DNA of 35,129 nt from an uncultured Bacilli bacterium. GTDB taxonomy: Bacteria > Bacillota_I > Bacilli_A > RF39 > UBA660. Numbering within the stretch: position 1 is the first letter of the stretch; every line of letters begins with the position of its first letter. The stretch lies in contig CANRKD010000008.1 of NCBI GenBank assembly GCA_947631105.1, forward strand, positions 1 through 35,129, written 5' to 3'. Positions 17,853-21,507 of the stretch are shown piece by piece. Made by a program: the position numbers and the translations under genes. A model generated the notes under the pieces. That model saw only the letters and a list, made by a program, of their open reading frames with translations. It had not been told where the DNA came from and made no database searches.

Positions 17853-19409
17853 TTATAAGTCGTTGAATTCATTTTGTTTATTTAGTTCATTCTGATACTC
17901 ATTGATTACTAAATTTGTGGTTGTTAAAAGCATGCTAGCAATAGAAGTGGCATTTATTAAACTATTTGTAATAACTTCGGTAGGATCTAATACAGAAGTA
18001 TTTTCAATATCTTGATAGACATTTTCTATAATATTAAATATTTTTTGATAATTATTCTTTTTTATTTGTTTTAGAATAGGTTCATATTGAATTCCAGCAT
18101 TTTCAAGTATTTGTATAAAAGGTTTTTGTAATGCTTTTTGAATAATTTTTTCTCCATCAGTATTTATAGGAATTGTCTGAGACAGTTCAAGGAAAATTAA
18201 TCCTCCACCAGGAACTATTCCTTTTTTGGCCGTTTCAATTGCAGATAATGCATCTGTCATACGCATGTGCTTTTCTCTTATTTCTGTTTCAGTATGTCCT
18301 CCAATAATAATTTCTGCTAGGCCATTTGTAAACATAGCGATTCGTTTATGATAAAAATCTTCATCAAATTCGTTGGAATTTTGTTTAATTGTATTTTTTA
18401 AATTCATAATATGTTTCTGAATTTTAGGATTGTTTTTAAAAGATATTGTTGTTTTATCTTTAGTGATTTCAATTCCTTCAATTTTACCTAAATGATTAAA
18501 TTGAACTAATTCTAAATTTTCTAAAATTTGACAATTTGCAAGTATGGATAAATCGTTTAAGAATGCAAATTGATGATCTCCAAATTCCGGATTTTTAAAT
18601 AATACAATGGGGATTTTATTATCTAAATAAAATGATAAGGTTGTATTGACAAATTCTTCGCTATAGTTATTAGCAATGATAAATAGATTTTTCTTTTTTT
18701 CTATACAATGATTTAATATTGGAGCAATTTCTTCTATATAATTTAATTCTTTTGTTGTTAATAAAAGATGGGATTGTCCAAATTTTAAATTTTGAGCTTT
18801 TAAAAAATATAAAGATGCAAGTTGTGTATCAAATTGATATCCTTTATAAATATGAATTTCCGTGTTATTGCTTTTTCCATCTACTAGACGAATAGCATGT
18901 TTGTTTTTCATCTTAGAATAAGTTTCACAAATAATTGCTCCAATTTCTTTATCGTTGGCAGAAATACTAGCAATTTTTTTTAAATCCGTTTTGGTTGGTT
19001 TTTTACTTTTTTTAATAATCATAGGGATGATTTTTTCAAGTGCATCTAACAATTCCTGTTTCAATTGAATTGCTTTTTTTCCTTTATTAATGTATTGAAG
19101 TCCTTCTAAGAAGATTTCCTCTAATAAAACTAATGTGGTCGTTGTTCCATCTCCTACTGTTTCATCCGTTTTAATAGCGGCCTCTTTAGCGAGTTCTAAT
19201 ATCGTATTTATTACACTATCCTCACTTTCAATATTTTTAGCTATGGTTACACCATCGTTTGTTATAAAGGGACTAAATGTAGAGTGATCAATAATGGTGT
19301 TAGTACCAATTGGGCCAAGTGTAGTTTTTACGGTATCACATAATAAATGTATGGCTTTTTTTAGTTGTTCTTGTAACTCTATATTACTTATTATCTTTTT
19401 CAATTTCAT
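17853..19409 (-). CDS. divergent GroEL-family chaperonin (paralogue type)
   Basis: A product of about 518 residues aligned by eye along the whole of GroEL. The ATPase core is intact: TLGPIG at 30-35, NDGVTIA with D52, GDGTTTT with D87, TDALSAIE (equivalent of D398) and VPGGG (usually AGGG). The apical, substrate-binding domain (about 190-370) has diverged, with YQFDTQLASLYFLK in place of the usual YLSPYFIN-type text. The Gly-Met-rich C-terminal tail is missing. No groES is adjacent. The start (ATG 19409, or GTG 19412) overlaps the end of the DUF4130-type gene by about 26 bases, so it is translationally coupled to the radical SAM pair. A specialised chaperonin that folds the products of this operon is a reasonable inference; being the cell's only GroEL is the alternative. 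Confidence 0.85.
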   Translation of the reverse strand: MKLKKIISNIELQEQLKKAIHLLCDTVKTTLGPIGTNTIIDHSTFSPFITNDGVTIAKNIESEDSVINTILELAKEAAIKTDETVGDGTTTTLVLLEEIFLEGLQYINKGKKAIQLKQELLDALEKIIPMIIKKSKKPTKTDLKKIASISANDKEIGAIICETYSKMKNKHAIRLVDGKSNNTEIHIYKGYQFDTQLASLYFLKAQNLKFGQSHLLLTTKELNYIEEIAPILNHCIEKKKNLFIIANNYSEEFVNTTLSFYLDNKIPIVLFKNPEFGDHQFAFLNDLSILANCQILENLELVQFNHLGKIEGIEITKDKTTISFKNNPKIQKHIMNLKNTIKQNSNEFDEDFYHKRIAMFTNGLAEIIIGGHTETEIREKHMRMTDALSAIETAKKGIVPGGGLIFLELSQTIPINTDGEKIIQKALQKPFIQILENAGIQYEPILKQIKKNNYQKIFNIIENVYQDIENTSVLDPTEVITNSLINATSIASMLLTTTNLVINEYQNELNKQNEFNDL

Positions 19410-20151
19410 CACTCATTTCTAACATATTTTTCCAATATTTTTTGGGCATAAAATTATTACGACAACGTTCATTTTTTCGTTCTTTAATACTAATTGTTTT
19501 ATAAAAATTTTTCCACAGAGCAGCAATTTGTTTTTCTTCTTGACAATCTTGTAACTCATTTAGAGAAAAATTAGATGCATTGACTAAATAAAAGTTCTTT
19601 TTATCATATATACTTATTATTTGTCTTTTTTCATCTTTTATAATCCAATTTTCATTTTTTAATCGATTTTGAAAGTGTTTAGACAAAATGGGGAGAATAT
19701 TATTTTCTGGAGAAATAGTTGCATATAAAATATGATTTTGTAATTCTTTAAAACGAGTAAATCCTTTAAATTTGTGATTTTCATGAGAAACGTATGCACT
19801 AATTTTTAAAGCTTTATCCACACATTTTAAGTTACGCATGTGAATAATTTTTTCTTGGTATTTTAAACTATTTAATAAAAAATAATAAATAATTAATTCT
19901 TTATTATCGGCATTTGATAGAAATACATAGTAGGCTATATTTATAATTTTTTTGCTAGTTTTAATTTGCCAAAATAGAAATGATTTTTCATCTTTTAGTT
20001 CTAATTCAATGATTGTGTCTAAAAGTGTTGGGTTATAATCAGTATTTTTGAGATTCATAGGTTTTATCTTATGATCAATAAGAATTTTTATTAAAGCAAG
20101 TAATGAAGAAAAAGTATTTTGATAAATATATGTAACATCATTTTGCTTCAT
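19384..20151 (-). CDS. DUF4130-type protein, partner of radical SAM DNA modification/repair protein
   Basis: A 255-residue product matching in layout the family (TIGR03915/DUF4130 as I recall it) encoded next to the radical SAM protein with which it overlaps. In some bacteria it is fused to a uracil-DNA-glycosylase-type domain, which is absent here. Visible stretches are YIYQNTFSSLLALIKILID at the N-terminus, KCVDKALKISAYVSHENHKFKGFTRF in the middle, LPILSKHFQNRLKNENWIIKDEKRQ, and a basic ending RCRNNFMPKKYWKNMLEM that contains the family-style MPKKYWK. Function is not established; a role in DNA base repair or modification is inferred from that partnership. It starts by an ATGA overlap with the radical SAM gene and overlaps the chaperonin gene at its end. 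Confidence 0.8.
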   Translation of the reverse strand: MKQNDVTYIYQNTFSSLLALIKILIDHKIKPMNLKNTDYNPTLLDTIIELELKDEKSFLFWQIKTSKKIINIAYYVFLSNADNKELIIYYFLLNSLKYQEKIIHMRNLKCVDKALKISAYVSHENHKFKGFTRFKELQNHILYATISPENNILPILSKHFQNRLKNENWIIKDEKRQIISIYDKKNFYLVNASNFSLNELQDCQEEKQIAALWKNFYKTISIKERKNERCRNNFMPKKYWKNMLEMSDEIEKDNK

Positions 20152-21359
20152 TCGAATAAAGAAAGTTGCTTTCTGTTGTGAGAATTTAATTCTTTTTCTT
20201 CTAAAACCAAATTGCTTTCAATAAATTGTTTATTAAAAAAAATAGGGTTGATAAAATATTTATGATTACAAGTGATAAAGTATTTTGCACGTTTTAAAAC
20301 CACACCCATATTTTTCAAATCTTTAAAAGTAATAGTAAATAATTTTCGTGAGGAATAAATACGCTTGGCGGAAGTAACACCAACGCCTGGAATTTTTAAT
20401 AAGTCTTTATAGGAGCATGTATTGATTTCTTTAGGGAATTCACTTAAATGTTTTAAAGCCCAATCAGTTTTAGGATCAAGTAATATGTTAAAATTTGGAT
20501 GATGCTCATCTAAAATGTCACTTACTGTGAAATGATAAAATCTCAGTAACCAATCTGCTTGATAAAGACGGTTTTCACGTTTTAAAGGAGGAGTTATAAT
20601 ACTAGGTAAAAGTTTATCTTTATTTACTGGAATGTAAGCAGAATAAAATACTCGTTTTAAATCATATTTTTTATACAATGTCTCACTTCGTTCCATTATA
20701 TCTTTATCGGTTTCTTGAGTTGCACCAATAATCATTTGAGTACTTTGTCCTGCAGGTACAAATTTTTTTGATTTATTCATGTGAACGTAATTCATAATTC
20801 TATCCACTTTTTTAAATTCTTTATTTGGAGCTAAAAGTTTTAAACTAGATGCAGTTGGGAGTTCAATATTAGCGCTTAAACGATCTACTAGATGGCCTAA
20901 TTTTTTTATTAAAATATCGCTTGTTCCCGGTATAGCTTTAGCATGAATATATCCGCCAAAATGATATTTATGTCGTAATAAATCAATCGTTTCTATCATC
21001 AAATTCATTGTATAATCTGGACTTTTAATGATTCCTGAGCTTAGAAATAAACCTTCAATATAATTTCTTTTATAAAAGTTCATGGTAATTGTACAAATTT
21101 CTACAGGTGAAAATATTGCTCGTTTAATATTATTACTTTTTCGGTTTAAACAATATTTGCAATCAAAAATACAACAATTTGTTAATAATATTTTTAAAAG
21201 AGAAATGCACCGACCATCACTAGAGAAAGAGTGGCAAATTCCTGAAAATGCTGTAGTACCTATTTTTCCAGTTCTTCGCTTCAAGCTTCCACTAGAAGAA
21301 CAAGATGCATCATATTTTGCACTATTAGCAAGTATTTGTAATTTTTCTTGTAAGTTCAT
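20148..21359 (-). CDS. radical SAM protein, putative DNA modification/repair family
   Basis: A product of about 403 residues. A Cys/Ser-rich N-terminus (AKYDASCSSSGSLKRR, ICHSFSSDGRC) precedes the radical SAM cluster motif CIFDCKYC (C-x3-C-x2-C), which binds [4Fe-4S] and S-adenosylmethionine. A TIM-barrel-like middle follows (LFLSSGI, GYIHAKAIPG, RLSANIELPT). Near residue 320 a helix-hairpin-helix, LLKIPGVGVTSAKRIY, would bind DNA. This matches the TIGR03916-type family linked to DUF4130 proteins and uracil-DNA-glycosylase-like domains. ATG 21357-21359 with GGTGAT upstream is preferred over the longer TTG/GTG options. It heads the operon with the DUF4130 and GroEL-like genes, divergent from the 21508 gene. 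Family membership is solid; the reaction is unproven. Confidence 0.88.
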   Translation of the reverse strand: MNLQEKLQILANSAKYDASCSSSGSLKRRTGKIGTTAFSGICHSFSSDGRCISLLKILLTNCCIFDCKYCLNRKSNNIKRAIFSPVEICTITMNFYKRNYIEGLFLSSGIIKSPDYTMNLMIETIDLLRHKYHFGGYIHAKAIPGTSDILIKKLGHLVDRLSANIELPTASSLKLLAPNKEFKKVDRIMNYVHMNKSKKFVPAGQSTQMIIGATQETDKDIMERSETLYKKYDLKRVFYSAYIPVNKDKLLPSIITPPLKRENRLYQADWLLRFYHFTVSDILDEHHPNFNILLDPKTDWALKHLSEFPKEINTCSYKDLLKIPGVGVTSAKRIYSSRKLFTITFKDLKNMGVVLKRAKYFITCNHKYFINPIFFNKQFIESNLVLEEKELNSHNRKQLSLFE

Positions 21360-21507
21360 AAAAATCACCAATATTATTATATATTAAAAATCTTTAAAAA
21401 TAAACAAATGTTCGTAAATAAATTGTGACAATTTATGGTAATTTTGTTTATTTACAGAATTTGAATGATTATGATAATATAAATTTACAGGTTTAAGAGG
21501 TGATGTT

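Follow-up and report, generated by a model that had tools for sequence, protein, structure and literature searches.

The window, i.e., the whole stretch of 35,129 nucleotides analyzed here, comes from an uncultured Bacilli bacterium (RF39; UBA660; contig CANRKD010000008.1) and carries on its minus strand three overlapping genes, which encode, in the order of transcription, a radical SAM protein, a DUF4130 protein and a divergent GroEL and together span positions 17853-21371. These three genes, here named the triad, are linked in the bacterial family to which the window belongs (f1 in the following). Three lines of evidence strongly support a tie between the chaperonin and the radical SAM/DUF4130 pair: the order of the genes is conserved, they co-occur all or none, and they share their phylogeny. 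The explanation that we favor, as the somewhat more probable one, is that the triad forms a DNA-damage-inducible operon, whose GroES-independent GroEL would be the dedicated chaperonin of the repair pair.

Linkage of the three genes in the family

Both members of the pair exceed the curated cut-offs of their NCBIfam families and lie adjacent on the same strand. The first gene matches TIGR03916, "putative DNA modification/repair radical SAM protein" (594 bits against a cut-off of 343.5, 2.2e-178), and the second one TIGR03915, "putative DNA repair protein" (205 bits against 112, 1.3e-60), as well as the DUF4130 domain model (155 bits). The third gene matches Cpn60_TCP1 (PF00118) with 157 bits and lies above the cut-off of the subfamily model NF009487, but well under that of the GroEL equivalog TIGR02348 (361.8 vs. 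582.1 bits). The reading frames overlap by 4 bp (radical SAM/DUF4130) and by 29 bp (DUF4130/GroEL), or 26 bp counted from the GroEL ATG. The same three overlapping genes, with 4 and 26 bases, had been named in the original prediction made from the sequence of the window, and position 21359, where it let them end, is the ATG of the radical SAM gene. However, its designation of the GroEL as a paralogue has to be dropped, because the host assembly (960 kb, 88% complete, 62 contigs) yielded no other Cpn60.

Among 88 genomes of f1, comprising the host genome and its relatives, 33 contain a Cpn60, and 31 of these also contain TIGR03916. The two remaining ones are G048, whose DUF4130 and GroEL genes lie where a contig begins, so that a preceding radical SAM gene would be missing, and G037 with an ordinary GroES-GroEL pair. 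Neither a Cpn60 nor an above-cut-off TIGR03916 is present in the other 55 genomes. The order sample (193 genomes, evenly drawn, all belonging to f1) gave the same picture, with TIGR03916 in 45 and Cpn60 in 44 genomes, both in 44 and neither in 148; G270 is the one exception, with a truncated radical SAM gene and no Cpn60. At the genus level both are found in 14/83 and neither in 69/83. Fisher's test yields 6.7e-43 with genomes as units and 3.8e-16 with genera, values that ignore kinship and of which even the genus count overstates independence. In all 32 complete loci inspected (31 genomes) the order is radical SAM-DUF4130-GroEL on one strand, with the genes overlapping or nearly abutting, and 18 more loci of the order sample have the same order, one of them ending at a contig edge before GroEL. 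The flanking genes differ among the 32 complete loci, and a conserved fourth operon gene was therefore rejected. Hence, although the GroEL of the window is the only one found in its host, its neighbors are conserved in relatives, and the idea of a chaperonin joined to the pair, which the original prediction would have given up for a lone GroEL with unconserved neighbors, is not refuted.

Two genomes showed peculiarities. G002 has two triads, L033 (G002:C13) and L034 (G002:C8), whose GroELs fall on separate branches of the tree, and in one of them the radical SAM frame is split (320 + 96 aa); as this genome is 6% contaminated, one triad may be foreign. G042 contains two different rpoB-like genes, L301 (G042:C14) and L330 (G042:C13), due to either contamination or a second rpoB.

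Shared history of the triad

The chaperonin tree, which the original prediction had proposed as a check along with the gene order, places the triad GroELs in one clade with a support of 99.9. This tree was calculated without the very divergent GroEL of G134, which had drawn L065 out of the clade by long-branch attraction; with G134 left out, a single clade was obtained. The GroEL distances among 26 genomes correlate with those of the radical SAM protein (r 0.91) and DUF4130 (r 0.91), and with those of rpoB at r 0.59. In a partial Mantel test given rpoB the correlations remain at r 0.85 for GroEL-radical SAM and r 0.87 for GroEL-DUF4130 (p 0.0005). Since these correlations survive the removal of rpoB, the three genes are inherited together, to some degree independently of the remaining genome. 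The dN/dS values in seven close pairs are 0.10-0.28 for GroEL and 0.03-0.08 for the radical SAM gene, which indicates purifying selection on GroEL that is looser than on the radical SAM gene. Moreover, the triad GroELs evolve much faster than canonical GroELs. It is very improbable that a GroEL landed once behind the pair and has since been carried along without functional tie: such hitchhiking would agree with the single origin of the triad GroELs, whose loci are not independent events, but GroEL is kept in every inspected locus and in at least 14 genera, under purifying selection and in small host genomes that shed other GroELs.

An SOS-like switch upstream of the operon

A LexA-like operator upstream of the triad is a point that the original prediction lacked. 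In nearly every triad a palindrome near C[AG]AAC-AWWY-GTTTG precedes the radical SAM gene, in most of them at a nearly constant distance. The operator of the window, CGAACATTTGTTTA, lies just upstream of a TATAAT element and ~42 nt ahead of the radical SAM ATG. Exact matches to CRAACNNNNGTTYR were found in 18/30 triads and matches with one mismatch in 11/30, with 0.04 and 0.98, respectively, in shuffled upstream regions; thus a site with no more than one mismatch is present in 29/30 triads, compared with 1.0 expected from shuffles. The pattern fits the known Firmicutes LexA box, CGAACRNRYGTTYG. In the host genome it occurs at four places, namely the triad promoter, ~67 nt before recA and twice within coding frames, so that recA is the only other promoter with it. 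As a control pattern read backwards occurs six times genome-wide, it is the places of the operator that are evidence, not their count. The lexA gene is present in nearly all f1 genomes, including those without GroEL, and is intact in most relatives; the host lexA is split between the end of contig C6 and that of contig C7. From the position and conservation of the operator, SOS control of the triad operon is strongly inferred, and LexA would be the protein that binds it. The coordinates of all features are given in Table 1.

Table 1. Features of the triad locus in the window.
Feature	Position	Strand	Remarks and basis
Divergent GroEL (group I chaperonin), gene 3	17853..19412	(-)	519 aa from GTG 19412; ATG one codon on, 19409
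DUF4130/TIGR03915 putative DNA repair protein, gene 2	19384..20151	(-)	Family models and fold model
Radical SAM TIGR03916 with C-terminal helix-hairpin-helix, gene 1	20148..21359	(-)	ATG start 21359; frame open to TTG at 21371
CxxxCxxC codons (CIFDCKYC) of radical SAM, 4Fe-4S ligands	21150..21173	(-)	Translation; cysteines invariant in 13-sequence alignment
QLSLF C-terminal codons of radical SAM, sliding-clamp-binding-like	20154..20168	(-)	Motif count
LexA/SOS-like operator CGAACATTTGTTTA	21401..21414	(-)	Pattern counts across triads
TATAAT, -10-like element	21376..21381	(-)	Position common to most triads
GGTGA, ribosome-binding-like, ahead of ATG 21359	21365..21369	(-)	Sequence

A LexA-like site with at most one mismatch was also observed outside f1, at 50/75 radical SAM loci against 3 expected (L136-L215, e.g., L180, L170, L214), which suggests that the uncharacterized radical SAM-DUF4130 pair widely belongs to the SOS response. 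Because of these sites the SOS control of the pair probably predates the triad, and GroEL would have come under it. GroE has been linked with SOS mutagenesis in Escherichia coli, a point on which our literature search gave nothing direct. An SOS-induced chaperonin could serve other damage-response proteins, e.g., a translesion polymerase; the radical SAM pair would then be a mere transcriptional neighbor. The recA-type operator at the promoter would suit this role. We nevertheless regard it as quite unlikely, since lexA is found in nearly all f1 genomes, yet GroEL only together with the radical SAM pair.

Apparent absence of GroES and of a general chaperonin

The original prediction had noted that no groES lies nearby, and this extends to the host genome as a whole, in which a Cpn10 profile detected no GroES at the given completeness of 88%. 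The same profile found no Cpn10 in any triad-bearing genome, and in the f1 sample only G037 has one above cut-off, as part of its ordinary GroES-GroEL pair. This pair (L027/L054, G037:C59:58523-60310), in a genome without triad, is the sole such case in the sampled family, and its GroEL is the most basal canonical GroEL in the tree. Neither GroEL nor GroES is detectable in the 55/88 f1 genomes mentioned above, many of which are >90% complete; in the literature searched, the loss of GroE in a gut lineage such as f1 is apparently not described. In another family of the class a very divergent GroEL, L066 (G134:C13:18815-20857), is preceded by a sub-threshold GroES-like frame. As no Cpn10 is found in triad genomes, the simplest reading of these sequences is that the triad GroEL works independently of GroES.

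A general chaperonin that sits in this operon by chance could be expected to be the only Cpn60 of its host, to retain intact ATPase residues and a canonical fold and to be under purifying selection, all of which applies to the GroEL of the window. However, most relatives live without any Cpn60 and lack it exactly when they lack the radical SAM gene, there is neither a GroES nearby nor a CIRCE element in the window, the promoter bears a recA-type operator, and the protein changes much faster than canonical GroELs do. We therefore consider this explanation unlikely.

A chaperonin with intact ATPase residues and altered apical domain

The ATPase residues D52, D87 and D398 (numbering of E. coli GroEL throughout) are kept in the GroEL of the window, as had been stated in the original prediction. 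In 33/33 aligned triad GroELs G32, P33, D52, G53, D87-T91, D398, G414, and D495 are invariant. The apical domain is indeed changed, with a mean identity to canonical GroELs of 23% vs. 33% in the equatorial and intermediate domains. Within the groove that binds GroES and substrates, L234 is replaced by S/A in 79%, E238 by N in 94%, V264 by S in 70%, N265 by L in 79%, and Y199 by L in 70% of the triad GroELs. Likewise, the Gly-Met (GGM) tail is gone, as predicted, its place being taken by a conserved C-terminus of the NEY..NK.NEYNEL type. An AlphaFold2 model based on 20 triad sequences predicts a confident three-domain GroEL fold (pLDDT 89.5), nearest to GroES-bound GroEL and Hsp60 chains (TM-score ~0.9).

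These changes would also fit a GroEL that is no longer a folding machine, but a structural or regulatory ATPase of a repair complex, acting on DNA or on the conformation of the radical SAM protein. The strongly altered apical domain, the new conserved tail replacing Gly-Met and the strict linkage to two DNA-repair proteins are in favor of this role. Since all ATP-site residues and the subunit fold of the two-ring type are retained, no DNA-binding feature was seen in GroEL, and a chaperone role takes fewer assumptions, its probability appears to be low.

The repair pair

The radical SAM proteins of f1 lack a loop of ~17 residues, which is present in all outside relatives inspected and maps between APNK and FVPAGQ (residues ~182-205 in the window). 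Compared with profiles of solved structures, the radical SAM family gave weak partial matches only. At the C-terminus a QLxLF motif occurs in 27/34 radical SAM proteins of the family and in 43/88 outside (shuffles 0.1 and 0.3); many radical SAM loci have the variants QLSLF or QLRLF, which resemble a sliding-clamp-binding peptide. The QLSLF of the window would be such a motif, and the frequency of QLxLF well above shuffles supports an action of the radical SAM protein on the replication clamp. For DUF4130, the AlphaFold2 model is most like the DHH/DHHA1 superfamily, with PAP phosphatase 8a8k (Z 9.9) followed by RecJ and Cdc45 (~8), a predicted likeness that is weak (TM-score ~0.44) yet consistent. 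Our literature search found nothing on TIGR03915, nor on UdgX together with radical SAM. Models of defence systems gave no match.

Distribution outside the family

In a sample of 392 genomes of the phylum, TIGR03916 was found in f1 only. Furthermore, a radical SAM alignment with a Clostridia sequence at its head was used to scan 84,980 species, one genome per species. Among the best 80 loci, three have a GroEL neighbor, with records labeled uncultured Bacilli or Erysipelotrichaceae, and the remaining 77, from Clostridia, Enterococcus, Bacteroidota, Geobacter, and others, have none in the DNA examined. So far as these tests reach, the triad is confined to f1. An origin from phages or plasmids was considered and rejected: radical SAM matches in plasmid and phage collections are at most ~56% identical, the 11 such loci inspected have no adjoining GroEL, and GroELs of phages and IMG/VR are at most ~34% identical. 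In viral contigs a single-sequence radical SAM scan gave no match, and an alignment scan gave two, both without GroEL.

Comparison with known systems

The GroEL of the window shares with the GroE system the fold, the domain plan and the ATP-site residues. It differs in the altered apical groove, the missing Gly-Met tail, the lack of a detectable GroES in the genome, a score below the equivalog cut-off, and its place as third gene of a repair operon, which appears to be under LexA-like instead of heat-shock (CIRCE) control. The gene pair and its order are the same as in Clostridia, Bacteroidota and Proteobacteria, where many loci of these types also have the LexA-like site, whereas a GroEL behind the pair and a radical SAM protein without the ~17-residue loop are found only in f1. 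The chaperonin of phage EL hydrolyzes ATP and protects against aggregation, and shows no interaction with GroES of E. coli (PMC7185714). By analogy, this protein (gp146; PDB 6tmt-6tmx) may be seen as a precedent for a distant GroEL that works without GroES. Yet the GroEL of the window scores only 76 bits to 6tmt and 57 bits to 6hdd of the phage chaperonins EL/OBP, against ~260 to bacterial and mitochondrial GroELs. Chlamydia GroEL2/3 and Myxococcus GroEL1/2 are divergent GroELs or GroELs without adjoining groES that have a narrowed role (PMC5406781). The Chlamydia GroEL models match the GroEL of the window weakly, and these paralogues coexist with a general GroEL and groES, neither of which was found in the host genome.

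A proposed dedicated chaperonin for the repair pair

According to the explanation favored here, LexA would hold the triad promoter shut until DNA damage relieves it, and the three overlapping genes would then be made together. The chaperonin ring would hydrolyze ATP via its intact equatorial ATPase and would assist or stabilize DUF4130, the radical SAM protein or both; it would probably hold them and keep them from aggregating rather than encapsulate them under a GroES lid. The repair pair would then probably work on DNA, with the replication clamp as a possible site of action. The lineage would have lost the general GroE system and kept the pair only with its own chaperonin. If the pair needs a chaperonin, GroEL is expected exactly in the pair-bearing members of the mostly GroE-less f1. 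The original prediction had proposed a dedicated chaperonin for a Fe-S radical enzyme. The tie to the pair is strongly supported, as stated above, whereas folding of the Fe-S enzyme is plausible only; we infer the client relation of GroEL to the pair, and DUF4130 would be an equally good client candidate. The wider proposal, i.e., that a lineage which shed GroE keeps an SOS-induced, GroES-independent GroEL only as maturation factor for one radical SAM repair pair, with the three genes gained or lost as a unit, has about an even chance in our estimation.

Several points weigh against a dedicated, GroES-independent chaperonin. The groove positions L237, L259 and V263 are mostly still hydrophobic in the triad GroELs and may allow binding of an unseen co-chaperonin, and all f1 genomes are incomplete assemblies. 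Outside f1 the radical SAM/DUF4130 pair adjoins no GroEL. The hosts elsewhere are expected to have a general GroESL, and both this and the folding of their pairs by it are assumptions. Moreover, correlated trees alone do not prove contact of the proteins, because genes of one operon share their history whatever their function, and the triad arose once, so that its many loci are not independent joinings. Finally, the case is built on comparison of sequences and on models.

A link of this kind had been called undescribed in the original prediction, and we found no published account of the arrangement either, in a search that fell short of most subscription journals; likewise, nothing was found on a "dedicated chaperonin" with GroEL or on RF39 with GroEL. 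Mollicutes are named as a group generally without GroE (PMC5810989, PMC13245659), and bacteria without GroE were recently described as limited to them (PMC13245659). The catalog of GroE-less bacteria would be extended beyond Mollicutes, provided that f1 lies outside them. Furthermore, the uncharacterized TIGR03916/TIGR03915 pair would be tied to the SOS response. GroEL is usually general, essential, controlled by heat shock and partnered with GroES, whereas in f1 it is apparently a damage-controlled helper of one operon. If this is true, f1 would provide a naturally occurring one-client chaperonin, with which one could ask why a protein comes to depend on GroEL and whether GroEL can do without GroES.

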